Assembly (NCBI RefSeq): GCF_002127585.1
Contig: NZ_NEGZ01000052.1
Coordinates: 1 to 64,000, forward strand
DNA from: Janthinobacterium sp. GW458P
GTDB taxonomy: Bacteria; Pseudomonadota; Gammaproteobacteria; Burkholderiales; Burkholderiaceae_D
DNA: 64,000 nt
Reading direction: 5' to 3'
Made by a program: the position numbers and the translations under genes. The notes below the pieces were generated by a model. The model saw nothing but the letters and a program-made list of their open reading frames with translations. It did no database searches and was not told where the DNA came from. This document shows, one piece after another, positions 35,135 through 49,045 of the stretch; position 1 is the stretch's first letter, and each line of letters opens with the position of its first letter.

Positions 35135-36127
35135 ATGTCTTCCCCTCCTATTCCCCCTGAACAGCCGGCATCCGGCCTGTTCCGCGCCGAATATGCGCGC
35201 CGCATGAACGCCGTGCTCGACCACATCGACCGCCACCTCGACACGCCGCTGGACCTGGCGCAGCTGGCCGACGTCGCGCATTTTTCACGTTTCCACTTTC
35301 ACCGCGTGTTCGCCGCCTGGATGGGCGAAACCTTGGGCGATTATGCGCGCCGCCGGCGCCTGGAAACGGCCGCCTTGCGGCTGGCCGCCCGCCCCGGCGA
35401 AGCGATACTCGACATTGCGCTGGCGACGGGCTTCGGTTCCGGCGAAGCGTTTGCGCGCGCCTTCAAGCTGAAATTCGGCTGCACGCCGACAGCCTGGCGC
35501 GCCGGCGTCGCCGCAAAGAACGCCGCCATGCTCACGGCCATGCGCCTGCGCCGGCAAGATAGCAATCCGGATCAGGCCATGCGCAATGGCGATCAGGAAA
35601 ACGGGCCGAACTTCCCGCACCATGGGCACTCCCATCCACTTGATAGAGAGAGTCCCATGCAAGTCACCATCCTCGACCTGCCGCCCGCCACCGTCGCTTG
35701 CCAGCGCCACATCGGCCCTTACGGCCCCGCCATCAGCGCCTTCTGGCGCGACACCGTCGCGCCATGGATGCAGTCGCACGGCCTGGGCGACGCCACCTGC
35801 TACGGCATCGGCCACGACGATCCCAGTATCACGCCGCCGGACAAATGCCGCTACGACGCCTGCGTTGCCGTGCCGGACTCGTTCCAGTCAGCGGGACGGG
35901 CCAGCCTCACCACCCTGCCGGGCGGGCGCTATGCGGTGGCGCAATTCAAGGGGCCGGCCAGTGCCATCTCCGACGCGTGGACGCGCATGACGCGCGAATG
36001 GCTGCCGTCCAGCGGCCTGCAATGGGACGAACGCCCCTGCTTCGAGCGCTTTTCCGCCGCCACGGCGATGGACCCGGCCACCGGCGAATTTTCCTGCGAA
36101 ATCTGCATCCCCGTGCGGCCGCTGTAG
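35135..36127 (+). CDS. AraC-family regulator with GyrI-like effector domain
   Basis: A 330-residue fusion. Residues ~20-125 are an AraC-type double HTH (LDLAQLADVAHFSRFHFHRVFAAWMGETLGDYARRRR; DIALATGFGSGEAFARAFKLKFGCTPTAW). Residues ~175-330 are a GyrI/Rob-like small-molecule domain (VTILDLPPATVACQRHIGPYG). This HTH-plus-GyrI order is typical of multidrug-responsive regulators. A low-complexity linker joins the two. No obvious target lies next to it. Confidence 0.88.
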   Translation: MSSPPIPPEQPASGLFRAEYARRMNAVLDHIDRHLDTPLDLAQLADVAHFSRFHFHRVFAAWMGETLGDYARRRRLETAALRLAARPGEAILDIALATGFGSGEAFARAFKLKFGCTPTAWRAGVAAKNAAMLTAMRLRRQDSNPDQAMRNGDQENGPNFPHHGHSHPLDRESPMQVTILDLPPATVACQRHIGPYGPAISAFWRDTVAPWMQSHGLGDATCYGIGHDDPSITPPDKCRYDACVAVPDSFQSAGRASLTTLPGGRYAVAQFKGPASAISDAWTRMTREWLPSSGLQWDERPCFERFSAATAMDPATGEFSCEICIPVRPL

Positions 36128-36164: not shown

Positions 36165-37199
36165 TCAGTGCCGCTGCAGCAGCCCGGCCACCGCCGCGAT
36201 CCTTTGCCGCACGCTGCCGCCGAGGATAGCAAAGGCGATCCCCCGCCGCGCCAGCTCCGCCTGGTACCAGGCGTGCTGGCGCGCGCGGAAATCCTCGTCG
36301 CGGCGCGTACCGTCCTGGATGAAGGGGAAATCGGGCGCGCACAGCACGACCAGATCGTAATGGTGTTCGGCCAGCCGGGCCAGTTCCGGCTCGGCCTTGC
36401 CGAACATCTCGACGCAGTAAAAGTACGTGGTCAGCGGCGAGGTGTCGCAAAACAGCCAGCGCCGCGCTGTCATGGCCGCCTGCGCCTCGCGTTTGAGCTG
36501 TTCGCGGCCTATCCTGAGCAGATCGTCATAGTGCAGTACGCCATCCTGACTTTCCCACAGCTCGCGGCCATATTCGGCCACCCAGCAAGTATCGAAATGC
36601 GCCGCCAGCGCTTGCGCCAGGGTGCTCTTGCCGCTCGATTCGCCGCCCAGCACGCACACGCGCGTCACAAAATCGGCGCGCACGACGGGCGACAGGAAAG
36701 CTCCGTGCGCCTGCGGGTCTTGCCGCACGAGGGTGCCGGACACGGGCACCAGGGTTCGCGCCTGGTCCACGCTCACGTGCGCCACCGGCCCGCTTGCGTA
36801 ATGCCGCTCCAGCACCTGCGCAAAGCCGGGGCCATAGTCTTCGCTGGTGAAGACGGCATCGACGGGCAAGCCCAGCACCGTCCAGCACAGCCAGCCCATG
36901 AAGTGGCGATGGTCGTCGCCATCGGCGTCGTTGTGCGGCAGCGCGCGCGCCGGCACGCCGCGCGCCGCGCACAGGGCGGCCAGGCGCGCATCGTCGAGCG
37001 CCACGATGTGCGCCTGCGGGAAGCGCGCGCGCAGCCACCGTTCCCGGCGCGCCGGTTCCAGGCCGGGAAATTCGGGCTTGGTGTAGCTGACCAGCAGCAG
37101 TTCTTCGCAGGCGTCCGTGGCGCGCTGTATCAATAGTTCATGGCCCAGGTGCAGCGGACAGAATTTGCCCACCACGAGGCCGCGTTTATAAAGATTCAT
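36165..37199 (-). CDS. NadR-like bifunctional NMN adenylyltransferase / ribosylnicotinamide kinase
   Basis: A 344-residue protein. Residues 1-~165 are a nucleotidyltransferase with GKFCPLHLGH (17-20 HxGH) and SGTLVRQDP, the ISGT-like motif. Residues ~180-340 are a P-loop kinase with GGESSGKST (185-193). This is the NadR layout without the N-terminal repressor HTH of E. coli. No PnuC gene is adjacent. The start overlaps the AMP-ligase stop as ATGA, which ties it to that gene rather than to NAD salvage neighbours. Confidence 0.82.
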   Translation of the reverse strand: MNLYKRGLVVGKFCPLHLGHELLIQRATDACEELLLVSYTKPEFPGLEPARRERWLRARFPQAHIVALDDARLAALCAARGVPARALPHNDADGDDHRHFMGWLCWTVLGLPVDAVFTSEDYGPGFAQVLERHYASGPVAHVSVDQARTLVPVSGTLVRQDPQAHGAFLSPVVRADFVTRVCVLGGESSGKSTLAQALAAHFDTCWVAEYGRELWESQDGVLHYDDLLRIGREQLKREAQAAMTARRWLFCDTSPLTTYFYCVEMFGKAEPELARLAEHHYDLVVLCAPDFPFIQDGTRRDEDFRARQHAWYQAELARRGIAFAILGGSVRQRIAAVAGLLQRH

Positions 37200-38575
37200 G
37201 CCACTGCTTCCTGTAAATCCGAGGTGTATTGAATGATCTTGTCTTCCGCCAGCAGGGTCTCGACCGAGATGGCGCCGAAAAAGGGCGCCAGCAAGGCCCG
37301 CGCCCGGCCGGCCAGCGGCATGGCGTTCGGCACCAGGCGCAGCACGACGGCGCCGTCGCCATGCTGGTGCACGCCGAACAGGGCGATGGCCAGCGGTTTC
37401 AGGGCGTGCGTGATGTCGATATTGTTGATCCACTCGCCCTTGAGCGTCCTGTAGCGCAGGGGACTGCGGCCTGCCAGGCCCACCAGCACGGGGCCGTCGG
37501 GGCCATGCGCGAGCGAGGCGTAGTCGCCCGTGCGGTAACGCACGAGGGGCAGGCAAAAGTTAAAACCGCCCGTCACGGTAATTTCGCCGCGCGCGCCCTC
37601 TGGCACGGGCCGGCCGTCCGCGTCGAGGATTTCCACGTACAGCCGGTGCTGCAGCAGCACGTGGCCGCCCGCCCGCTCGTCGTAGACGGCCACCGGCCCC
37701 ACTTCATTGAGCGAATAAATGTCGAGCACGGGGCAGCCGAAACGCTGTTCCAGGCGCGCGCGCATGCCGGGCAACAGCATCATGGAGACGGACAGCAGCG
37801 CGGCCGGACGGTGCGCCATGGGCAGGGTCAGGAGTTCCGCGAACGAGATCGGGTCGCCCGCGACCAGTTCGGGCGCCATCGCGTCCAGGTAGCGCGCGCG
37901 GTCGTCCGGGTCACGCCAGTCGTCCGTATGCAGGTTGATCTTCGCCAGCCCCGATTCGTGCATGGTCGGCGTGACGGAGACATAGGTGAAGCAGCGGCGC
38001 TGGTGCCCCAGCAGCATCACGCCCACCTGTCCCGCGCCATGGCGCAGGGTGACGCCGAAGCGGCGCAGCGCTCGCTTGTGGAAGGCCAGGTAGCGCCCCG
38101 CCACCAGCGGGTGCGAGGCGATCATCAGCGGGTGGCCCGTGGTGCCCGTGGTCTGGAAATTGATCATGCGCGCCAGGTCCGCATCGTCGGGCACGAAGGC
38201 GGCGATATCGTGCGCCAGCTCGGCGCGGCTGACGGGCGCCACATCGGCAAGATGCGCGGGGGGCGAACCGCAGGCGCGGTAATACGGCACGCCAGCGTAA
38301 ACGTCCCTGAGAAAAGCCGGCAGCCAGGATGGCGGCGCAGCGGCGCTCCAGCGTATGGCCGCGTCCATGACCTCGCGCTCATACGCGTGCAAGGCCGCCA
38401 CTTCCCCGGCCTGCAGCTTGTTGCCGCTGCGGTTGCGGTAACGGGGGGCTGCGGGATGGCTGCGCAGCTTTTCCAGCATGCGCGCTCCCGCCGGCGTCAG
38501 GGTGGGACAGTAATCGCGGTCCGATTCCCAGGCGCCGCCCGGCAGGTTGGCGTCAGGTTTGCCAGCGAGCGTCAT
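37196..38575 (-). CDS. Phenylacetate-CoA-ligase-like AMP-forming enzyme
   Basis: A 459-residue member of the adenylate-forming superfamily of the PaaK type. The phosphate loop is FQTTGTTGHPL, the central motif YSLNEVGPVAVYDE and the ribose-binding YRTGDYASL. The C-terminal subdomain is short (NNIDITHALKPLAIALFGVHQ) and I do not see the usual A10 lysine. The substrate acid and acceptor are unknown. ATGA overlaps join it to both neighbours in a three-gene translationally coupled unit. Confidence 0.75.
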   Translation of the reverse strand: MTLAGKPDANLPGGAWESDRDYCPTLTPAGARMLEKLRSHPAAPRYRNRSGNKLQAGEVAALHAYEREVMDAAIRWSAAAPPSWLPAFLRDVYAGVPYYRACGSPPAHLADVAPVSRAELAHDIAAFVPDDADLARMINFQTTGTTGHPLMIASHPLVAGRYLAFHKRALRRFGVTLRHGAGQVGVMLLGHQRRCFTYVSVTPTMHESGLAKINLHTDDWRDPDDRARYLDAMAPELVAGDPISFAELLTLPMAHRPAALLSVSMMLLPGMRARLEQRFGCPVLDIYSLNEVGPVAVYDERAGGHVLLQHRLYVEILDADGRPVPEGARGEITVTGGFNFCLPLVRYRTGDYASLAHGPDGPVLVGLAGRSPLRYRTLKGEWINNIDITHALKPLAIALFGVHQHGDGAVVLRLVPNAMPLAGRARALLAPFFGAISVETLLAEDKIIQYTSDLQEAVA

Positions 38576-39168
38576 TCGCGCGACCACTTGTCGGCCGATT
38601 CCTCGGCCGCCTTCTTCGCCAGCGCCTCGCGGATTTCCCGCGCGCGCTGCTCGGCCAGGCGGCTCGCTTCGAGCAGGCGCCGGCGCTCCGTGCCGCTGAT
38701 GGCGGACAATCTGTCCGTGGCCTGCGCCACGCTTTCGTCGCGCGGACGAAAGCCCAGGCGCGCCAGCACGATGCGCGCCAGTTCCTCGCGCCGCTCCGGG
38801 TCTTGCGTGAACTGGTGCGCCGGCGTACTGGCGGCCAGTTCGCGCGCCGCCTCGCCCAGCACTTGCAGCAAGTCCTGCTGCGGCAGCTGCTGGCTGATGA
38901 ACCAGTCGTCGGCCAGCAGCCAGCACAGGATCATGGCCAGCGCCAGCCGGTTGCGGTCGGCCTTGACCTGCGCGCCGAGAAAGCCCTGCAGCGACGCGGC
39001 CGGCGCGCGCGCGCCATGCAGCAGCACAATGTCGTTGACCAGCGCGGCAACCGCCACGGCCTGCGCATTGGCGACGCCGGCGATGCGGGGCTCGGCGAGG
39101 AATTCGACGGGCGTGTCGGCCAGGCGGTGGGTCAAGGTTTCGAGCAATGGACCAGAAGTGTTCATCAT
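38572..39168 (-). CDS. 198-aa helical protein of unknown function, first gene of the AMP-ligase/NadR unit
   Basis: I do not recognise a characterised family. The protein is almost all helical. The middle is hydrophobic and aromatic (LALAMILCWLLADDWFISQQLPQQ), and the C-terminal ~50 residues form a charged, possibly coiled-coil helix (ISGTERRRLLEASRLAEQRAREIREALAKKAAEESADK). Two adjacent ATGs (39168, 39165) are possible starts with no clear ribosome site. Its stop overlaps the AMP-ligase start. The size and tail suggest an adaptor or scaffold; that is inference. Confidence 0.65.
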   Translation of the reverse strand: MMNTSGPLLETLTHRLADTPVEFLAEPRIAGVANAQAVAVAALVNDIVLLHGARAPAASLQGFLGAQVKADRNRLALAMILCWLLADDWFISQQLPQQDLLQVLGEAARELAASTPAHQFTQDPERREELARIVLARLGFRPRDESVAQATDRLSAISGTERRRLLEASRLAEQRAREIREALAKKAAEESADKWSRE

Positions 39169-39182
39169 TTTACTTTGAATGC

Positions 39183-39250
39183 AAACCCCAGAATGCAACT
39201 GCCGGGGTCGGACCCTCAGGGTCCGACCCACGGTGTAGCCGTTGGGGTAA
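39183..39250. repeat. 68-bp palindromic repeat, copy A (downstream of the MoxR-vWA block)
   Basis: It begins AAACCCC and ends GGGGTAA. The centre is a 12-bp perfect stem, GGGTCGGACCCT / AGGGTCCGACCC, with one unpaired base (39205-39229). It fills the gap between the vWA gene and the 198-aa gene. Copy B is at 44088-44152. Confidence 0.75.
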
Positions 39251-39251
39251 T

Positions 39252-41033
39252 TTAAACATAGTGGCGCCGGCTGAACGCCCGCGCAAATTCCAGCAAGTCC
39301 TCGTAGCGCTCGACGGCGTGGATATCCCAGCCCTGCTCGCGGCGCGCGCGTTTCAGGTCGTCATAGGTCTGCTGCAGCCACTTGTGGCTCGCCGCTCCCT
39401 CCCATTCGTGCTCCAGGTTCAGGGCCATGGTGCCGCCCGCGCCGCCCCGGGCCAGCGCTTTCGCCGAGATATCCCAGCCGCTGTTGCCCAGTTCATCCTT
39501 GTCGAACATGGTGGTGATGCCGTCGTCGGAAATCATCAGGATGTGCGCGGGCCGTTCGCGCTTGCCCGCATAGGTCTGGCGCAGGCAGTGGATGGGGAAA
39601 CAGGTGCCGCCGCCAAAAAATTCCGTCAGCACGCCCAGGATCATGTCTTCGTCGCGCACGAAACCGGGCGTCTGCATCACCTCGTTCTTGCCGCTCCACA
39701 GGGTCACCTGCACTTTCGCGCCGGCGCGCAGGGCGGACAGGGCGATGACGGCGCCGGCCAGGGTCAGGAAGGAAGTGTGCGCCTGCGGGTTCGGCATGGA
39801 GCCGGAACTGTCCACGTACATGTCCAGGTCGACGGGCACGGCATCGAGTGCGCGCGCCGGTTCGCGGCCATAGACCCTGCGCACGGTGCTCACGCCGGGC
39901 ACGGGGCGCGGCGACTGCATCACGGACTGCAGCCAGTCGATTTCCTCCAGCGGATCGCCGACTTCCCACGCTTCCAGCCCTTCCATCTGCGGCTCCTGCG
40001 ACTCGGGCGCGGGGCGGCTGGGAAACGCCACCAGGTGCGGCAAGGCCCGTTCGCGGTAATAGCGGATGGCGATTTCATGGTCGCTCAGGTCGATGCCCGA
40101 GGCCTTTAAAATATCGCCCAGCTCGAACGGTTCGCGCAGCTGGCCGCCGCCCGGCCTGGCCGGCGCCTCGCCTTGCGGTTCCTCGCCATCGAGGCCCGAG
40201 ATGCGCTTGTCGTGCACGGGGTGGATGGCGCCGCCCTCCTCGTCATCCTCGATCTGCTGCGCGCCATACGTCTGGCAGCCCCGGGCCGCGTCGCGCGTGT
40301 CCTGCAGATAGCGGCTGGGGCCCAGGGCGTCCGTATCGTCGACCAGATAAGGCAGCAGCAAGGTGGCGAAGCGGCCAGCCGCCAGCATCCAGTCGTTCGC
40401 ATACACGCGTATCAGGCGCGCGCCCAGCCAGGCATCCGTGTCCAGGCGCTCGTCGGCCTCGTTCTCAGCTCCTGCTCCGCCCAGCTCTCCCTTTTTCAGC
40501 TGCCACAGGTTTTCATAGATGCGCATGTACAGGGTCCATACGCCGCCGCTGGACTTGGCCTGGCCATCGGGCGCCGGCTCGCGCCCCTGCTGCAGCTTGC
40601 GGTAGATGTCGGCCATGCGCAGATTCGCCTGGCGCTGCAGGCGGTCGTTGATGAACAGGTCCGTGTACAGATTGGCCACCATGGGCGCATGCTGTTCCAG
40701 GGTCGGCAAGGCGCGGCGCATGCGCGCCAGCAGGCGAAACTGGTCGCCGGCGCTGCCCGGCGCGAGGATGTGGTGGCCGATTTCATGGGCGAGGATTTCC
40801 AGCGCATAGTCGTCCAGCCCCAGCTCCGTCACCAGCGGCAAGTCCACCACCACGCTCTGGTCCAGCAAACGGATCATGGCGAAGCTGCCGGACAGGCCCT
40901 GCTTGCTGGCCTGGACATGGCTGGCGCACAGGCTGGGGTCGCGCAGGCGCGTAAATTTGCTCCACACGGCCAGGGCCTCGGGCCAGGCGGCGCGCCAGGC
41001 ATCGATCAGGGCGGGGGCGGCGTCCGTCTTCAT
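39252..41033 (-). CDS. Metallopeptidase-like plus vWA domain protein (DUF2201/COG3864-like)
   Basis: A 593-residue protein. The N-terminal domain has a zinc-peptidase motif EILAHEIGHHILAP (HEIGH at 83-87), followed by a helical region and a charged linker (~260-300). The C-terminal ~200 residues are a von Willebrand A domain with the MIDAS motif DSSGS (408-412) and later FFGGGTCF and MISDDG. This pairing is known in DUF2201-type proteins, which sit beside MoxR ATPases. The ATG overlaps the upstream gene as ATGA. It probably acts with the MoxR ATPase; the target is unknown. Confidence 0.8.
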   Translation of the reverse strand: MKTDAAPALIDAWRAAWPEALAVWSKFTRLRDPSLCASHVQASKQGLSGSFAMIRLLDQSVVVDLPLVTELGLDDYALEILAHEIGHHILAPGSAGDQFRLLARMRRALPTLEQHAPMVANLYTDLFINDRLQRQANLRMADIYRKLQQGREPAPDGQAKSSGGVWTLYMRIYENLWQLKKGELGGAGAENEADERLDTDAWLGARLIRVYANDWMLAAGRFATLLLPYLVDDTDALGPSRYLQDTRDAARGCQTYGAQQIEDDEEGGAIHPVHDKRISGLDGEEPQGEAPARPGGGQLREPFELGDILKASGIDLSDHEIAIRYYRERALPHLVAFPSRPAPESQEPQMEGLEAWEVGDPLEEIDWLQSVMQSPRPVPGVSTVRRVYGREPARALDAVPVDLDMYVDSSGSMPNPQAHTSFLTLAGAVIALSALRAGAKVQVTLWSGKNEVMQTPGFVRDEDMILGVLTEFFGGGTCFPIHCLRQTYAGKRERPAHILMISDDGITTMFDKDELGNSGWDISAKALARGGAGGTMALNLEHEWEGAASHKWLQQTYDDLKRARREQGWDIHAVERYEDLLEFARAFSRRHYV

Positions 41034-42001
41034 GCGAGCGGCAGCAGGCGGATCGCATGCGTCCAGGGCGAGGTGACGGCCAGCGTATGCGCATTGGCGG
41101 CGATGGCGATGTCGCCGGCCGGTACATCGAGCGCAATGCGGCGCGCGCCGATATGCAGGGTCGCCCCATCGAGGCGCACGGATGCCGGTGCGCCCGTTTG
41201 CGCCTGATCAAACTCCTGCGCCGTGGCGCTGTGCAGCACGGCGCCATAGGCGTCGGTCACCAGCAGGAAATAGCGTTCGGCGCTGCGCACGATGAAACCG
41301 TCATCCGTGGCGCGCACCAGCGGCGGCGTGGCGAAGTCGCCACCGAGGCCGCTGAAGCTGCCGAATTCCCTGCCATCCACATTGCCGCGCCACGGATAGT
41401 CCAGCAACTGCGCACGCACCTGCGGCCATTGCGCGCCGGGCTCGCCGAAGGCGGCCAGCGCCAGCGCGGGCGGCAAGGTGTCGGCGGCGGCCAGCGCGCC
41501 CTGGCGGAAATGCGCGACGCCCGCGCGCCAGGCCAGCACCTGGCCCACGGCGCGCAGCTGCGCCACCGTGGCGATCTGCGCTGCCAGGGCAGCCAGCTCG
41601 CGCTGCCACTGCGCTGGACGCGCGCCCGCCACCGCGGCGATGTGGATGGCGGCGTTGCTGAGCATGCCCAGCACGTCGACGGGCGCCGTCGCCAGCAGCG
41701 GCGCAAACTGCGGCGCCAGCTCGCGCCAGACGGTGTTCAGGAACGGGTTTTTCGCCGCCGGCCCCGCCAGGCCGTGGCCCACCAGCGCCAAAGCCGTGTC
41801 GTAGGCGGCCAGGGTCGCGCCGCCCGCGCGCTCGGGCGCGGCGGCGGACACGGCGACCACCAGCGGATCGACGCCGTCGCGCAAAAAGGCGCCGAAGGCA
41901 GCCATGTCGAGCGAGGGAAAGCGCCGGCGCGCTTCCGCCGCACGCGCATTGAACTGGGCGCGGCCGCCGGCAAGGATCGAAGCAAAGGCAGGAGAAATCA
42001 T
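41030..42001 (-). CDS. 323-aa unknown protein in the MoxR-vWA block
   Basis: No family recognised. The N-terminal ~200 residues look alpha-helical and Ala-rich (AAFGAFLRDGVDPLVVAVSAAAPERAG). The C-terminal ~120 residues look beta-rich, with strand-turn patterns such as DDGFIVRSAERYFLLVTDAYGAVLHS and ALDVPAGDIAIAANAHTLAV. In related MoxR-vWA loci the third protein is often variable and may carry beta-propeller-like domains; whether this C-terminus belongs there needs profile searches. GAGGTG precedes the start. The stop overlaps the vWA start. Confidence 0.7.
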   Translation of the reverse strand: MISPAFASILAGGRAQFNARAAEARRRFPSLDMAAFGAFLRDGVDPLVVAVSAAAPERAGGATLAAYDTALALVGHGLAGPAAKNPFLNTVWRELAPQFAPLLATAPVDVLGMLSNAAIHIAAVAGARPAQWQRELAALAAQIATVAQLRAVGQVLAWRAGVAHFRQGALAAADTLPPALALAAFGEPGAQWPQVRAQLLDYPWRGNVDGREFGSFSGLGGDFATPPLVRATDDGFIVRSAERYFLLVTDAYGAVLHSATAQEFDQAQTGAPASVRLDGATLHIGARRIALDVPAGDIAIAANAHTLAVTSPWTHAIRLLPLA

Positions 42002-42010
42002 CGTTGCACC

Positions 42011-42484
42011 TCAGTCGCTGTGCGAAAAATGCAGCAGATAGCGCTCGCCATCGCGCTCGAACGCGATCTCGTCCCAGTGGATGGCGTACCAGAAACCGGC
42101 GGGCGGCGTCATCGTCACGGCGTGCAGGGAAAAACCGCCCAGCGCCTCGTCGAGCGATTCGAGGAAGGCGGCCACCAGCTGCGCGCGGAAACGCCCGGGT
42201 GGCGCCGCCTGCATGTGCTGCGACGAGAAAAACCAGCGCTGGCACACCTGTTGCAGATGGGCGCGCGCGCACGGCGCGGCCTTGATATGCCACAAGGGGG
42301 CCGGCAAGTCGCGCGCGGGCTCGATGACGTGCAAGGCATGATCTTCCACGCGCAGGCCCAGCGCCGCGGTCATCTCCGGCGCATCGGGCAGGCGCAGCAA
42401 TTCGTAGCTGGCGCACAGGTCACTGGCTTCACTATTCAGTAGAGCCAGCGCTTCCAGGAAGCCTAGACAATGATGGATACTCAT
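42011..42484 (-). CDS. 157-aa unknown protein in the MoxR-vWA block
   Basis: No family recognised. It is a soluble mixed alpha/beta protein with a Trp/Phe-rich C-terminal half (CQRWFFSSQHMQ, GFWYAIHWDEIAFERDGERYLLHF). There is no signal peptide. Its ATG overlaps the MoxR stop (ATGA, 42484-42481) and the 323-aa gene starts 9 bp after its stop, so it is a fixed member of the operon. It may be a specificity or adaptor subunit; that is inference. Confidence 0.68.
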   Translation of the reverse strand: MSIHHCLGFLEALALLNSEASDLCASYELLRLPDAPEMTAALGLRVEDHALHVIEPARDLPAPLWHIKAAPCARAHLQQVCQRWFFSSQHMQAAPPGRFRAQLVAAFLESLDEALGGFSLHAVTMTPPAGFWYAIHWDEIAFERDGERYLLHFSHSD

Positions 42485-44061
42485 TGCGAACGCAGCCAGC
42501 CGCGGTAGTTGGTATAGCGCTGGTGCAGGTATTTCAATTTCAGCAGGTCGTCGTACAGGGGGCCGTACAGCTTGCGCCCTTTCGTGCGTTCGCCGATCAG
42601 CTTTTCGATGCGGTTCAGGCGCGCCAGGGTTTCGCGTTCGCTGACGCCGTCGAGGCCCAGGTCGAATTCGGCCGACAGCACGCCCACGGGATCGTCGCGG
42701 TCCAGGTCCAGGCGGTTGAATTCATCGTTGGACAAATCGAACAGGCGGCGCAGCCAGCCCAGCCTGTCGCTGCGGTAAGCGGCGTTTTCCGGCAGCGCGA
42801 AAAACGGCGCGTCCGGGTCCGGCTGCAGCTTGTTATGCAGCACAAACGGCAGCACCTGGCGCAGGTCTTCCAGCTCCACCTCGCCATTGCCGCGAAAATA
42901 AGCCATGGCCTTGGCGTAGATCAAGAGCGCCATCAGGGTGCGCACGGAAATGCCGTTCAGGGTCTGGCAGCCGAGGTCCTTCAGGCGGTCGCGCCCGTTG
43001 TCGGCCGCCTGCGCGGCGCCCCGGTCGGCGCCGGCCAAACGGGCCGTATCCTTGGTCATGTATTCGAACTGGCCGCCGGCCGTCTCGAACAGCTCGAACT
43101 GGCTGGCAAAAAACTCCAGGCGGCGGCGCACGGCGTCGGGCACGCCCACCTGGCGGATCGCTACGCCGATCTGGTCCACCTCCCCTTCCGTGAAAATGAT
43201 ATCGGGCGGCACCAGCTCTTCGGGGCGCACGTTTTCTTCGACGCGCAGCAGCAGCTCGTTCAGGAAGCGGGGATTGAAGGCCAGCGCCTGCACCGTCACG
43301 TCGACCCGGTCGCGCAGCGCCTCGATCACCTGATACGTGCCGCCGCCCTGATCGTCGTTGGCCGTCAGGTACCAGGCCGCTTCCGGGCATTCATAGATAT
43401 GGTTCAGCACTTCCGCGTAATTGTCGCCCATGACGGTGAGCAGCGCGCTTTGCGTGCGCGTGGGGATGCGGTTGTATTCATCGACGATCTTCACGCGCAT
43501 GCCCAGCCAGGCGCGCCAGGCGATGCGGATATCGTCCATGCTTTGCGCGTTGACCAGGTCCGCCGGCAGCGGATTGCCCAGCAGGTCGGCTACCGTCATC
43601 TGCGGGTGGCCATGCTGCATGGCGCGTTTCACCTCTTTCACCGTCGAACCGGCCAGCACGCCCATCAGCAGGGCGCTGGCCGTCTTGCCCCGCCCCGGTC
43701 CGCCGACGAACAGGCATTTGCGGCGCGTGGCGAACGTCAGCAGGGGCAGCAAGATAAAACTCGAATAGCTTTGCGCCGACGGCAAATTCAGGGTACGGCG
43801 GCTGTCGCCCACGGAATAGGTCTGCGACGGGCCGTCGTTGTATTCGATATCGTAATGGGGGCTGATGATGGCGTGGTTGACGATCCAGAAATAGGCCTGG
43901 CGCAGCTTTTCATCGAAGGGCCGCGCTTGCGTCTCGCCTTCGGCGCCCAGCGCGATGGGCCCCTGGTACAGGTCCGCCACGTCGAACTGCCGCGCGGCGG
44001 GCGCGGCCTTGGGCTTGGTGGGGGCTTGGGACAGGCGCTGGAACAAATTGAATGCAGACAT
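42481..44061 (-). CDS. MoxR-type AAA+ ATPase
   Basis: A 526-residue ATPase, larger than the ~330 residues of simple MoxR proteins because of an N-terminal ~85-residue and a C-terminal ~120-residue extension. Walker A GGPGRGKT (120-127), Walker B VKIVDE (190-195), sensor-1 LTAND (232-236) and the arginine region EALRDRVDV are in the right order. MoxR ATPases remodel or load client proteins together with vWA partners, and a vWA gene lies three genes down. The start is uncertain (ATG 44061 or 44070); none has a clear ribosome site. Confidence 0.82.
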   Translation of the reverse strand: MSAFNLFQRLSQAPTKPKAAPAARQFDVADLYQGPIALGAEGETQARPFDEKLRQAYFWIVNHAIISPHYDIEYNDGPSQTYSVGDSRRTLNLPSAQSYSSFILLPLLTFATRRKCLFVGGPGRGKTASALLMGVLAGSTVKEVKRAMQHGHPQMTVADLLGNPLPADLVNAQSMDDIRIAWRAWLGMRVKIVDEYNRIPTRTQSALLTVMGDNYAEVLNHIYECPEAAWYLTANDDQGGGTYQVIEALRDRVDVTVQALAFNPRFLNELLLRVEENVRPEELVPPDIIFTEGEVDQIGVAIRQVGVPDAVRRRLEFFASQFELFETAGGQFEYMTKDTARLAGADRGAAQAADNGRDRLKDLGCQTLNGISVRTLMALLIYAKAMAYFRGNGEVELEDLRQVLPFVLHNKLQPDPDAPFFALPENAAYRSDRLGWLRRLFDLSNDEFNRLDLDRDDPVGVLSAEFDLGLDGVSERETLARLNRIEKLIGERTKGRKLYGPLYDDLLKLKYLHQRYTNYRGWLRSQ

Positions 44062-44087: not shown

Positions 44088-44152
44088 AACCCCTAAAGCC
44101 AAGGACCGGGGTCGGACCCTCAAGGTCCGACCCCAGCATTTCGCTGGGGTTA
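44088..44152. repeat. 65-bp palindromic repeat, copy B (upstream of the MoxR-vWA block)
   Basis: It begins AACCCCT and ends GGGGTTA. The core GGGGTCGGACC / GGTCCGACCCC (44108-44134) is followed by a second hairpin CCCCAGC / GCTGGGG (44131-44149). It shares ends, core and size with copy A at 39183-39250. Confidence 0.75.
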
Positions 44153-44182: not shown

Positions 44183-45334
44183 TTACGCCTTGTTCAAATC
44201 AACAACGGTTTCCTCCAGCTTGCGCCAGCGCCGCCAGCCCAGCGCCACGCAGGCCAGCAGCAAGGCCAGCAGGCCCGCCACTTCATGGCGGATCTCATAC
44301 AGCGAGGCGCCCATTTGATTTAGCGCAACAAAGCCCTGGATGCCGGCCGTGGACGGCAGCAGCCAGCGCAGCCATTGCAGCACGACGGGCATGGACGACA
44401 CGGGCCAGGTCAGGCCCGCCAGGAACAGCACGGGCATCGAGGTGGCGATCATCAGCTGCGTGCCCCGCTCGCGCGTGCGGAACAGCATGCCCAGCAGCAT
44501 GCCGAACGCCGCTTCCGCCAGCGAAAACAGCACCAGCAGCAAGAGCATGCCGCCAAAGTTGCCGCCTCGGGGGTAGTCCTGGAACCAGAAGACGAAACCA
44601 AAGAAATAGCAGCAGTTGAGGAAAGCCACGCAGGCAAATGCCAGCAGCATGCCCGCGTAGCCGCCCGCCGTGCGTCGGCCTGCCAGGGGAAAGCTCTTGC
44701 GCTGATACCAGGTGCCGAACAGCATGGTCATGCCGATCAGCAAGGTCTGCTGCACGATCAAGGTGGCCACGCCCGGCACGACATAGGCGCCATAGCCTTC
44801 CTTGACGTTAAACAAGGGTACGGCGTCAAAGGCAATGGGCGCGCGCTGCTGGCTGGCCTGCACGGTCGATGGCGTGCCCGCGCCCAGGCGTTTCAACTCG
44901 ATGCCGGCCGACACCGTGCCCACCACTTCGGCCAGGCCGTTCAAGGCCACCTTGTTCAACATCAAATACAAACCATTGCCCGCCACCTGCGCATGGGCGG
45001 CGCGGCCGGCCAGCACGTCCGTCTGCAAGCCGTCGGGAAGGATCAGCACGCCCATGACCTGGTCGCGCCACAGCAAATCCTGTGCGACGGGCAAGTCCGG
45101 CGTGACGGCGATCACCTGCAATGAGGGATGGGCCATGGCAAAGCGCGTCAGCTGGCGCGACATGGCGCTGCGGTCCTGGTCGACGACGGCCACGGGCACG
45201 CGCTGGACGATTTCCGTCGAGTACGGCAGCGGATAGAAGAACGAGTAAATGATGCCGCCGATAAACAGCAAGGTCAGCGCTCCCTTGTCCGTCAGCATGG
45301 CGCGCCAGGTGGCGATAAAAGCCGGCCAGATCAT
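44183..45334 (-). CDS. ABC-2 type exporter permease (second of two)
   Basis: A 383-residue inner-membrane protein of the YbhR/YhhJ type: one N-terminal helix (LLFIGGIIYSFFYPLPY), a large periplasmic region (VPVAVVDQDRSAMSRQLTRF...), then five helices with FLAGLTWPVSSMPVVLQWLRWLLPST near the end. Its ATG overlaps the upstream permease stop (ATGA). It would form the channel with that permease and pass substrate to the HlyD/TolC partners; the substrate is unknown. Confidence 0.85.
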   Translation of the reverse strand: MIWPAFIATWRAMLTDKGALTLLFIGGIIYSFFYPLPYSTEIVQRVPVAVVDQDRSAMSRQLTRFAMAHPSLQVIAVTPDLPVAQDLLWRDQVMGVLILPDGLQTDVLAGRAAHAQVAGNGLYLMLNKVALNGLAEVVGTVSAGIELKRLGAGTPSTVQASQQRAPIAFDAVPLFNVKEGYGAYVVPGVATLIVQQTLLIGMTMLFGTWYQRKSFPLAGRRTAGGYAGMLLAFACVAFLNCCYFFGFVFWFQDYPRGGNFGGMLLLLVLFSLAEAAFGMLLGMLFRTRERGTQLMIATSMPVLFLAGLTWPVSSMPVVLQWLRWLLPSTAGIQGFVALNQMGASLYEIRHEVAGLLALLLACVALGWRRWRKLEETVVDLNKA

Positions 45335-46512
45335 GTACGTCCCCAGGCGGCCGGCGCATGCGCGCGGCGCGCCAGCAGGAATACGCCCACGGCGCCGCAG
45401 CCGATGGCAAAGCCGGCCAACATCAGCATTTCCTGCACGCCATAGCGCCACGGCGCGCCGGCCAGCCAGTATTTCGTTTGCAATTGCAGATAGTGCGTGA
45501 GCGGCAAGGCTTCCGCCCAGGCGCGCGCGGGCGCCGGCATGGCCATCAGGGGAAAAGCCTGGCCCGCGAAGGCGAAGGCCGGCGCCGTAATAAATGCCGC
45601 GCCCGACAGGGCCAGGCGCAGGGACAGCGTGGCGGCGATGAGCAGGGTCGCCAGGCCGCAATACGCGAGCACCAGCAGCAGCATGCTCAGCAGCAAGGCC
45701 GGCAGGCTGCCCGCCACGGCCCAGCCACGCGCCAGGCTGAAGAACAGCAGATACAGCAGCGCCAGCGCGCAGTAGGCGATCACGGGAAACAGCAGCTTGG
45801 CAAGCACGGCGCGCAGCCAGCTGCCACGGGCCGAGGCCAGCCATTGCGGCACCGTGCCGTCGCGCAACTCGCGTCCGATGCTCGTGACGACGGCGACGAC
45901 GATGAAAATCTGCAGCATGGCCGGCATCAGGGCCAGGGTCAGAAATGCTTCATAGCTGGTGTTTTCATTGTATAAACTGTTCAGCGTCGTGCGTATCGGT
46001 TCGAAGTGGGCCGCCGCCTGCACGCCCGACATGCCCTTCTTGGCACGCGCCGTCATCTCGATGCCGGCCGACAAGGTCGTGCTCACCGTGCGCACGTCGC
46101 GCAGCAGGGCGCCCGCGTGCGAGGAAAACTGCGCGTTGTACAGCCATTGCACGGTGGCTTGCCGGCCGCCCAGCAGTTTCTGTTCGAAATCGTTCGGGAT
46201 CAGCAGATAGCCGAACGCCGTGCGCTCGCGCAAGCGATGCAGCGCTTCGTCGCTGGACGCCACTTTCGCCGCCACTTCGATGCCGGGCGAGGCGTCGAGC
46301 CAGCGCGTGAGCTGGCGCGACAGGGTGGAGTTATCATTATCGATGACGACGATGGGCAAGTCGCGCGCGATGCCGGCGGAAAACACCAGCCACAACATGC
46401 CGCACAGCACGACGGGAATCCAGCTGAGCATGCCCAAGTCCCAGACATCGCCGCGCAGCCGCCGCCACTCGCGCGCCAGCGCCGACACCGGCCCTTTATC
46501 CGCTTCGTTCAT
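45331..46512 (-). CDS. ABC-2 type exporter permease (first of two)
   Basis: A 393-residue paralogue of the downstream permease with the same plan: a first helix (MLSWIPVVLCGMLWLVFSAGI), a periplasmic domain beginning LPIVVIDNDNSTLSRQLTRWLD, and a C-terminal block of about five helices with FAGQAFPLMAMPAPARAWAEALPLTHYL. It starts 6 bp after the HlyD-family gene. Neither permease carries a fused nucleotide-binding domain. Confidence 0.85.
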   Translation of the reverse strand: MNEADKGPVSALAREWRRLRGDVWDLGMLSWIPVVLCGMLWLVFSAGIARDLPIVVIDNDNSTLSRQLTRWLDASPGIEVAAKVASSDEALHRLRERTAFGYLLIPNDFEQKLLGGRQATVQWLYNAQFSSHAGALLRDVRTVSTTLSAGIEMTARAKKGMSGVQAAAHFEPIRTTLNSLYNENTSYEAFLTLALMPAMLQIFIVVAVVTSIGRELRDGTVPQWLASARGSWLRAVLAKLLFPVIAYCALALLYLLFFSLARGWAVAGSLPALLLSMLLLVLAYCGLATLLIAATLSLRLALSGAAFITAPAFAFAGQAFPLMAMPAPARAWAEALPLTHYLQLQTKYWLAGAPWRYGVQEMLMLAGFAIGCGAVGVFLLARRAHAPAAWGRT

Positions 46513-46518
46513 CGCGTA

Positions 46519-47493
46519 TCAGAGCGGTGGAAACACGACCGACATGCCCGGACGCAAGCCCTCGACCTTGATGGCGGGACGCAGCCGGATTTCAAACGTG
46601 CGCAAGTCCGTGCCGCCCGGGCGCGCCGCGCGCCACGTGGCGAAATCGGGCAGCACGGCCACGGAACTGACCTTGAAGCTCACTTGCTGTTTCAAAGCCG
46701 GCACATTCGCCGTGTGCGTGCTGCCCATGGCAAACGCGGCCATTTCATCTTCGCGCACCTGCAGCACGGCCCAGGCGTCGTCGAGGTTCACCAAGGTAAT
46801 TACGGGAAAGCCTTGCGGCGCCAGTTCGCCCGGCTGTATCTGGATCTTGCTGACCTGCCCGGTCACGGGCGCAGCGATCTTCGTTTCCACCAGGGCGATC
46901 TGCGCTTCCGTCAGCACGGCGCCCACCTGGCGCGCCTGGGCGGCGGCGGCCGTCTTGTCTTCCGGACGGGCGCCCTTTTGCGCCATATCAAACTGGGCGC
47001 GAGCCGCTTGCGCCAGCTGGTCGGCGGCGCGCCACTGCGCTTGCGCCTCGTCGCGTTTCTGCTGGGCAATCACGCCTTGCTCGTACATATTGTTGACGCG
47101 GGTGTACGTAGTCTTGGCGATATTCGCGCCCGTTTGCGCCCGCTCCCAGTTGGCTTTCGCGGCGGCAATTTCTTCCGGACGCGCGCCCGCTTGCGCCTTT
47201 TGCGCCACGGCGTCGGCTGCCTGCGTGGCCGCCGTCGCTTGGGCGATCTTCGCGTCCACTTCCGGGCTCGTCAGCTGGAACAGCACTTGCCCCTTTTGCA
47301 CGTTCTGGCCCAGCCTGATGTACAGCTCGCCCACCCTGCCCGGCACTTTCGACGAGACATTGACTTCCTGCGCATCCATCTGCCCCTGCAAAGGCAGGCG
47401 CTGCGGCTGGAATGCCTGGTACAAGCCCCAGCCCACGAAGGCCAGGACGATGATCGCGGCGACTATGGCCAAGGGTTTTTTGGAGGTGCTCAT
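46519..47493 (-). CDS. HlyD-family membrane fusion protein
   Basis: A 324-residue periplasmic adaptor anchored by one N-terminal helix (IVAAIIVLAFVGWGLY). The lipoyl/barrel-sandwich halves are seen in VSSKVPGRVGELYIRLGQNVQKGQVLFQL and ETKIAAPVTGQVSKIQIQPGE, with a long coiled-coil hairpin between them containing two GARPE repeats. It bridges the permeases to the TolC-type channel encoded 2 bp upstream. Confidence 0.9.
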   Translation of the reverse strand: MSTSKKPLAIVAAIIVLAFVGWGLYQAFQPQRLPLQGQMDAQEVNVSSKVPGRVGELYIRLGQNVQKGQVLFQLTSPEVDAKIAQATAATQAADAVAQKAQAGARPEEIAAAKANWERAQTGANIAKTTYTRVNNMYEQGVIAQQKRDEAQAQWRAADQLAQAARAQFDMAQKGARPEDKTAAAAQARQVGAVLTEAQIALVETKIAAPVTGQVSKIQIQPGELAPQGFPVITLVNLDDAWAVLQVREDEMAAFAMGSTHTANVPALKQQVSFKVSSVAVLPDFATWRAARPGGTDLRTFEIRLRPAIKVEGLRPGMSVVFPPL

Positions 47494-47495
47494 TA

Positions 47496-48923
47496 TTATT
47501 TGTCCACAGGTAATTGGATGTCGGCCGCGGCCGCCAGACTGCCCAGGCGCTGCGTCTCGCCCGTCGCTTCCAGCAATTGCGCCAGCCCCATCACATAGTT
47601 ATAGGCCGTTTGCGCGCGCTGGGTCTCGACCTTGGCCAGGTTCAGGCGCGCGTCGACCACTTCCAGCGACGTCACTTGCCCTTGCTGGAAAGCAACCGTT
47701 TGCAAACGGATATTTTCGCGCGCCAGCTCCACCGACGAGGCCGTGGACAGGTACTGGATGCGGGCGTTTTCCAGCGCGCGCCAGTTCTTTTCGATCAGGG
47801 TGGGAATGTCGCGCTCGGCCTGGCGCGCCACCACTTCCACGCGTTCCTGGTCCAGCTTGGCTGCGGCGATCATCTTGCCCGCGTTGATGCGGTGCACGAG
47901 CGGTACTGCCACGACGAGGCCGATGGCCCAGTTCGAGCGCACGAGTTTTTCGTTGCCGCGATTCAAATTGTAGTTACCGATGGCAAAGACGGTGGGCGCG
48001 TATTCCTTGCCATGCAGCTTCAAGGCTTGCTCGGCCTGCACGCGCTTGCTGTCGATCTTTTTCCAGTTCGCATTTTCCCGCATGCCCGTGCTGATGAACG
48101 ACTGCAAGGTGCCTACCGGCAAGCTGTTGACGAACAGGGGCGTGCTGGGCCGCACTTGCGTATTGACGGCGAGCAAGCGGTCGAGCGCCACTTGCGCGAT
48201 TTCCTCGTCGCTGCGCGCCTGCGCCTCGTCGCTGCGCGCGCTGTCGAGGGCCACGTCGGCGCGCAGGCGTTCCGCGCGCGAAATCAGGCCGCCCTTTTCC
48301 AGCCTGGCCGCGTCGCGCTGGTGCTGCGTCACGCCGGCCGTCACGTCGGCCCGCACGGCCACCACCCGCTTGGCCAGCAGCAACTGGAAATAGCGCTGCG
48401 CCACCAGGGTGGCCAGCTGCTCTTCCGCTTCCGTGCGCTCGGCCTGCGCGGCCAGGGTCAGGCTCGACGCGAGGCCCTTGACGGCGTCCAGGCGCCCGCC
48501 CGTGTAGATGGGCCACATGCCCAGCAAGCCGAACGAGGTCAGGTCCGTCACCACTTCGCGGTTCAGGGAATTGGGAATGTGCGGCGTGGGCAAGCCGGGA
48601 ATCGGCGGCAGCACGGATTCGATGCCGCCCACCACGCCGGACAAGCCGCTCGTATCGATGTTCAGGTCGGTCGACAGGCGGCCGCGAAACGCCGTCAAGT
48701 CCACGGAGGGGCCGTCGATATTCGACAGCGCCTCGGCTTTGAGGGTTTTGGCGCGCACGTCGAGGGCCGCGCCCTGCACGGCGCCCGAAGCCGCGGCCGC
48801 CTGCTGCAACGCTTCGTTGAAACTCAAAGGCGCGCCGGCCGGCAACTGCGCCTGGGCCTGCAGCGCCGGCAGTAATACAGCCAGCGCGCCAGCCAAAAAT
48901 AAATGTCCTTGCAATCTGCCCAT
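47496..48923 (-). CDS. TolC-family outer-membrane efflux protein
   Basis: A 475-residue outer-membrane channel protein with a signal peptide (LFLAGALAVLLPALQAQAQ). Two repeated helical halves contain the typical LSFNEALQQA and RYFQLLLAKR ... NVRLQTVAFQQGQVTSLEVVDARLNLAKVETQRAQTAYNYV patterns, the last kept here as separate pieces of one stretch. It is the first gene of the exporter operon. The ATG at 48923 is taken; a GTG at 48956 would add 11 residues before the signal peptide. Confidence 0.88.
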   Translation of the reverse strand: MGRLQGHLFLAGALAVLLPALQAQAQLPAGAPLSFNEALQQAAAASGAVQGAALDVRAKTLKAEALSNIDGPSVDLTAFRGRLSTDLNIDTSGLSGVVGGIESVLPPIPGLPTPHIPNSLNREVVTDLTSFGLLGMWPIYTGGRLDAVKGLASSLTLAAQAERTEAEEQLATLVAQRYFQLLLAKRVVAVRADVTAGVTQHQRDAARLEKGGLISRAERLRADVALDSARSDEAQARSDEEIAQVALDRLLAVNTQVRPSTPLFVNSLPVGTLQSFISTGMRENANWKKIDSKRVQAEQALKLHGKEYAPTVFAIGNYNLNRGNEKLVRSNWAIGLVVAVPLVHRINAGKMIAAAKLDQERVEVVARQAERDIPTLIEKNWRALENARIQYLSTASSVELARENIRLQTVAFQQGQVTSLEVVDARLNLAKVETQRAQTAYNYVMGLAQLLEATGETQRLGSLAAAADIQLPVDK

Positions 48924-49045
48924 GTAGCGTCCAGTCAATGAATGAGGGGAAAGCACGGGGTTGCCATGTTTATACTTTCACAATAGCAATTATATCTACG
49001 AATGTCTATTCCAGCCTGCACTATTGGTTACTGCGGCCGGCACGC

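Follow-up and report, generated by a model that had tools for sequence, protein, structure and literature searches.

The subject of this analysis is a cassette of seven genes, here called A to G, in a 64,000-nucleotide stretch of the Janthinobacterium sp. GW458P genome (the window; positions 1 to 64,000 of contig NZ_NEGZ01000052.1). It encodes a MoxR-type AAA+ ATPase, a partner with a von Willebrand factor A (vWA) domain, two enzymes with the hallmarks of carboxylate activation and of nicotinamide adenine dinucleotide (NAD) salvage, and three proteins that no family library recognizes. The original prediction, made from the letters of the window, placed a four-gene MoxR/metallopeptidase-vWA block at 39252-44061, and its four open reading frames (ORFs) are indeed all on the minus strand where it put them: A (526 aa, 42481..44061), B (157 aa, 42011..42484), C (323 aa, 41030..42001) and D (593 aa, 39252..41033). 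The junctions are likewise as described, with 4-nt ATGA overlaps at A/B and C/D and a gap of 9 nt between B and C. A, C and D are real genes, since dozens of genomes have their orthologues in this order. The block does not end at D, however. Comparison of all ORFs of the window with distant loci shows conservation running on through three more minus-strand genes to position 36165: E (198 aa, 38572..39168), F (459 aa, 37196..38575) and G (344 aa, 36165..37199), with another 4-nt ATGA overlap at each of the E/F and F/G junctions. The whole, written A-[B]-C-D-[radical SAM]-E-F-[PnuC]-G (brackets for optional members; SAM, S-adenosylmethionine), is an evolutionary unit that is chromosomal and has spread horizontally. 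Its composition, order and linkage, the intactness of its motifs and its phyletic pattern are firm observations.

The ATPase and its vWA partner

By its motifs and domain matches A is assigned to the MoxR AAA+ ATPases. AAA_3 (32.1 bits) and AAA_lid_2 (30.2 bits) both score above the Pfam gathering thresholds, and the Walker A (GPGRGKT) and Walker B (KIVDEYNR) motifs are invariant across relatives, among which the identity of A is 56-99% across phyla; a distant relative in the PDB is 2r44. The N- and C-terminal extensions that had been pointed out in A are family-specific and highly conserved, the N-terminal one being about 115 aa long.

D combines a HEIGHH motif (residues 83-88) with a DSSGS motif (residues 408-412), as had been noticed, and both are kept in relatives: H83, E84, G86, H87, H88, D408, S410, S412, T477 and D503 are invariant in 23 sequences from several phyla. 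The last five make up the complete set of a metal ion-dependent adhesion site (MIDAS; D408xS410xS412...T477...D503). Foldseek, given a structure model of moderate quality (predicted local distance difference test, pLDDT, 82.2), finds the best structural match of the vWA domain in NorD of the NorQD complex (E 1e-4), with integrin I-domains also matched; Pfam VWA_2 is matched weakly, below its cut-off, in D itself and weakly in 17 of the 23 relatives. Motifs and predicted fold together identify the C-terminal domain of D as a vWA domain with a full MIDAS, probably of the co-chaperone type. The N-terminal region is metallopeptidase-like: an invariant D125 is a possible third metal ligand, and there is a weak match to Peptidase_M48 (E 0.08-0.2). 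COG3864/DUF2201 proteins, in which an HExxH region is followed by a vWA domain, have a layout like that of D and provide a lead; DUF2201_N (PF13203) was nevertheless rejected, because it fails to pick up D at E<=0.001 when run on the genome of the window and has no match in the 23 D proteins, the one weak match elsewhere being to an unrelated HExxH protein.

Ligase, NAD salvage and the unrecognized proteins

F is, on its motifs, an adenylate-forming enzyme of the PaaK/DVU_1553 type that is predicted to activate a carboxylic acid. AMP-binding (PF00501) is matched above the Pfam cut-off, the PaaK structures of the PDB are matched at E 6e-17, and T142/G144, E291, R346/D351 and K446, which make up the adenylation motifs and the catalytic lysine, are invariant. 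F shares its domain and adenylation motifs with the PaaK/coenzyme F390 synthetase-like and DVU_1553 ligases but falls far below equivalog cut-offs (DVU1553_fam_AMP, E 9e-23, 80.8 bits against a cut-off of 300). G is assigned, again from motifs and domain matches, to the NadR-type enzymes that join a nicotinamide mononucleotide (NMN) adenylyltransferase to a ribosylnicotinamide kinase: TIGR01526 (NadR) is matched at E 2e-51 with 174.9 bits, below the equivalog cut-off of 341, and AAA_28 above its cut-off at E 2e-36. The adenylyltransferase motif GKFCPLHLGH...VSGT and the kinase motif GGESSGKST are conserved, and there is no helix-turn-helix domain. G is thus like the NadR of nicotinamide riboside salvage, where it is paired with PnuC, but it is embedded in a MoxR-vWA operon. 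At two loci (L060 and L072; loci are numbered here where they have to be told apart) it is reduced to a 159-aa adenylyltransferase half.

Two further genes are optional. PnuC lies between F and G in many other genomes (the L067 copy scores above the NCBIfam cut-off), and the Janthinobacterium cassette is without it. In about a third of the distant cassettes a radical SAM/SPASM-like gene with CxxxCxxC and four C-terminal cysteines stands between D and E (L059:9758-10750, L049:9788-10756, L078:10144-11109). Its matches to viperin and to many maturase models are weak, and none is above cut-off; against NCBIfam viperin it reaches 55 bits for a cut-off of 180, and the PADLOC viperin models are also matched weakly. 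A search of the Janthinobacterium genome of the window found no relative of it, which rules it out as a core step.

B, C and E are a more heterogeneous set. None of Pfam, NCBIfam, PADLOC and PHROGs provides a match to B or to C. The original prediction had presented both as possible partners of the MoxR-vWA pair, and for C this holds: in the family-wide survey C occurs in the same 18 of 196 genomes as D. It does not hold for B, which is found in 11 of the 196, all Janthinobacterium, and is missing even from four Janthinobacterium loci (L043, L044, L046, L048). B, lying between A and C, is a dispensable accessory gene of that genus, and its restricted spread together with the loci that lack it rules it out as a conserved partner. 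The AlphaFold2 model of C is confident (pLDDT 92.9, predicted TM-score 0.88) and bears out the suggestion of a helical N-half and a beta-rich C-half, the former all-helical with eleven helices; the conserved centre reads PW...GxFxGxGGxFxxPP. A fold search with C against the PDB and viral models gave no match at E<=0.001, and against beta-propellers the best E is at least 0.17, with a TM-score of about 0.12.

E is recognized by its synteny, which is kept across phyla. By sequence it has no match in the PDB, and all of its Pfam matches are below cut-off; DUF4158, matched by five E members and always below cut-off, was discarded. Its most conserved part is the last ~38 residues, ending in Arg-Glu (conservation 0.81, against 0.55-0.71 elsewhere), as would be expected if this tail were bound or processed. 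Sought elsewhere in the genome, the tail finds a chance-level match alone (E 0.11). The E-F pair is present twice at two Chloroflexi loci (L063 and L072). A 645-aa ORF at L060 was rejected as an E-F fusion: in the second copy of E (L060:13333-13938) a frameshift follows residue 87, beyond which E is out of frame, and the ORF, passing through this broken E into F, imitates a fusion.

Distribution and co-inheritance

The closest relatives of D are in Janthinobacterium, 32 of whose 37 good-quality genomes have it. More widely it is rare. The 18 family genomes with D represent 4 of 44 genera, and E, like C, is in the identical 18; among 398 genomes of the phylum, full-length D is found in 3, the query included. 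Distant copies of D exist in Hahella and in metagenome-assembled genomes of Verrucomicrobiia, Chloroflexi and Spirochaetes, and a 6-kb Acidobacteria contig, also from a metagenome-assembled genome, carries a copy too but could be mis-binned. This is not the pattern of a gene set that is core and syntenic in all relatives, and we know of no housekeeping role for it. Neither a plasmid collection, searched for A, nor phage records and viral contigs, searched for D, yielded a copy.

The order A-C-D-E-F is kept in Janthinobacterium, Massilia, Duganella, Undibacterium, Paucimonas, Hahella, Verrucomicrobiia, Chloroflexi and Spirochaetes; G is present in most relatives of the cassette, and the full order A-C-D-[rSAM]-E-F-[PnuC]-G (rSAM, radical SAM) is kept nearly everywhere that contigs reach far enough. 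The exceptions are L054, with no A within reach and rSAM-E-F displaced by ~6 kb, L062, with neither A nor C, and L060, in which G and the radical SAM gene are rearranged beside the second E-F. Across 15 loci, A, C, D, E and F have pairwise-distance matrices that correlate at 0.92-0.97, and their gene trees are broadly alike; this is expected of co-inherited genes and is not by itself proof of interaction. Mean pairwise identity is highest for A (71%), followed by D (57%), E (51%), F (50%) and C (37%). Two Janthinobacterium genomes without D have unrelated genes at the cassette site, between a left neighbour that is retained (90-92% identity) and, on the right side, the exporter, also retained (about 64-70%); since the flanks are kept and unrelated genes lie between them, the cassette is present or absent at this site as a block.

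Maturation, conflict and other readings

The original prediction put the block forward as a candidate conflict (defence) or quality-control module. What defines the published ternary MoxR-vWA conflict systems is a VMAP, iSTAND, FtsH or beta-propeller component, together with swapped effectors and variable architecture (PMC7159879). The cassette resembles them in that one operon holds a MoxR ATPase, a vWA protein and a conserved third protein, and a conflict system of this type, with C as the sensor, D as a protease effector and NadR and PnuC restoring NAD+ after attack, could also account for the patchy spread across phyla, the replacement of the cassette by unrelated genes in two Janthinobacterium genomes and the evolution of C, which is the fastest among the proteins compared. 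The four defining third components are, however, not there. B and C do not match the bpX or VMAP Pfam families, and B, C and D give no VMAP-C match (weak VWA_2 and chance matches are all that appear); the N-terminus of A carries motifs other than the VMAP-type WxhapG and PsWRxa, and its P-loop is the normal GPGRGKT rather than the bpX-type GxxxTAKS. No beta-propeller follows the vWA domain of D, no inactive STAND or double FtsH AAA+ domain scores above cut-off in B, C, E, F or G, and PADLOC has no match for any of A to G. Nor does D carry any further domain after the vWA that could serve as an effector, and no relative shows domain swapping; the architecture is invariant, the gene order constant, and the cassette is fixed in most of one genus. 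Scans of Pfam, NCBIfam, PADLOC, PHROGs and of phage, plasmid and viral sequences lend no support to membership in a defence system. A conflict system is thus unlikely. The prediction had also stopped short of E, F and G (and, in other genomes, of PnuC and radical SAM), genes that speak for metabolism or maturation.

We tentatively favour, at a probability of roughly 0.4, a cofactor- or enzyme-maturation/remodelling system that is coupled to carboxylate adenylation and NAD salvage. The reasons are that the features of conflict systems are lacking, that an AAA+ ring and a MIDAS-bearing vWA domain are shared with maturation chaperones, and that F and G add carboxylate activation and a supply of pyridine nucleotides; the catalytic or ligand motifs of A, D, F and G are all intact. 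In general, MoxR-vWA pairs serve the maturation of enzymes (PMC7159879). For NorQD, a proposal based on cryo-electron microscopy has ATP-driven remodelling of NorD let iron enter the NO reductase cNOR, with the MIDAS as the suggested docking site (PMC13036017). The cassette shares with NorQD the MoxR AAA+ ATPase and the vWA partner with a full MIDAS (DxSxS-T-D), the vWA domain of D being closest in fold to that of NorD. It differs in the N-terminal HEIGHH region of D, which has no match to the N-domain of NorD, and in the long extra N- and C-terminal regions of A; NorQD has nothing that corresponds to C, E, F or G, and no NO reductase genes lie nearby.

By analogy, we infer a complex in which A would form a MoxR AAA+ ring and D would dock on it by way of the vWA domain, its MIDAS holding an acidic peptide of the client much as NorD may do for NorQ. 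ATP turnover would then twist or open a client recruited by C and perhaps by E, and the zinc-peptidase-like HEIGHH region of D might trim the client, or the conserved tail of E, at the end of maturation. F, with E as its putative partner, would convert a carboxylic acid to an acyl-adenylate ready for transfer, and G, together with PnuC where it is present, would supply NMN/NAD+ from nicotinamide riboside. A more specific proposal is that the cassette makes and installs a pyridine-nucleotide- or adenylate-derived cofactor: G would provide NMN/NAD, F would activate the carboxylate, radical SAM would tailor the product in some lineages, the A-D ring would place the product, or its metal, in a client brought by C and E, and the HEIGH region of D would finish the job. 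This elaboration is improbable as it stands; the nickel-pincer nucleotide and NorQD-type insertion follow an analogous logic, although their parts are unrelated to those of the cassette.

Several points weigh against maturation. Its main weakness is the absence of a co-travelling client gene: comparison of the flanking genes beyond the cassette across phyla found none in common and no shared gene for a client enzyme. The HEIGH domain of D and its 23 relatives matches no Pfam peptidase family above cut-off, the roles given to C and E are guesses because neither has a recognizable fold or family, and radical SAM and PnuC, being optional, cannot be essential steps. The papers found offer no precedent for linking NadR- or F-type enzymes to a chaperone, and the patchy spread across phyla would be expected also of a cluster for defence or for a secondary metabolite.

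In its place one might consider a small biosynthetic cluster whose product is diffusible, with F loading an aromatic or other acid, G and PnuC giving a pyridine nucleotide building block, radical SAM tailoring, MoxR-vWA assembling the enzymes and, in Janthinobacterium, an exporter releasing the product. An operon for such an exporter (ABC2 permease/HlyD/TolC type, minus strand, 44183-48956) lies directly upstream of the cassette, F is nearest to PaaK-type ligases, among them those of natural-product and pigment clusters (FlxY, BagE/FevW), and near AjiA1 and PaaK-like ligases in the PDB, and the spread is patchy. The same exporter is present, however, in two Janthinobacterium genomes that lack the cassette and is not beside the cassette in other genera; cassettes share no carrier protein, synthase or tailoring set; and MoxR (71% mean identity) is far more conserved than F (50%), suggesting a core function in protein remodelling. 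The biosynthetic cluster is therefore rather doubtful. That the cassette is two neighbouring units, a MoxR-C-vWA chaperone next to a ligase grouped with NAD salvage (NadR, PnuC), transferred together and mechanistically unrelated, seems distinctly unlikely: NadR-PnuC pairs do exist independently of the cassette, and some cassettes lack G or PnuC or have them in reduced form, but start and stop codons overlap at most junctions from A to G, E is locked to C and D in 18 of 18 genomes, A, C, D, E and F diverge in correlation and their order is kept across phyla. A general MoxR-vWA-HEIGH chaperone-protease that clears damaged proteins under stress would suit an AAA+ ring with a peptidase-like domain in its partner, and one report describes some MoxR proteins as protecting against stress (PMC11432383). 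It is nonetheless very improbable, the cassette being too rare in the phylum for housekeeping and E, F and G being left unexplained.

A search of open-access papers turned up no MoxR-vWA operon that includes NadR, PnuC, an AMP-binding ligase or radical SAM, and nothing beyond the eLife 2020 conflict survey (PMC7159879), whose systems differ. Within that literature the cassette is an undescribed MoxR-vWA system with two unrecognized protein families, C and E. Gene order, across phyla, ties its MoxR-vWA machine to acid-activating and NAD-salvage enzymes and to these two families. To our knowledge, MoxR-vWA machines are known for few clients only: NO reductase, Mo-Cu CO dehydrogenase, Rubisco and Mg-chelatase. 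If the link is true, Janthinobacterium offers genetically tractable access to a new pathway for enzyme maturation or for a cofactor, and it would be wrong to class every MoxR-vWA operon that has unrecognized partners among the conflict systems.

Two smaller observations concern the surroundings and the intergenic DNA. A gene for an AraC-like regulator, with what reads as a GyrI-like C-terminal part, lies on the plus strand at 35135-36127, convergent with G and 38 nt from its end. A palindrome, GGGTCGGACC...GGTCCGACCC, occurs in the D-E gap (window 39205-39229) and again just upstream of A (44109-44133), making four half-sites where 0.15 would be expected by chance; since further copies lie upstream of A or between D and E at some other Janthinobacterium loci, it appears to be a REP-like (repetitive extragenic palindromic) or terminator-like repeat of the genus.

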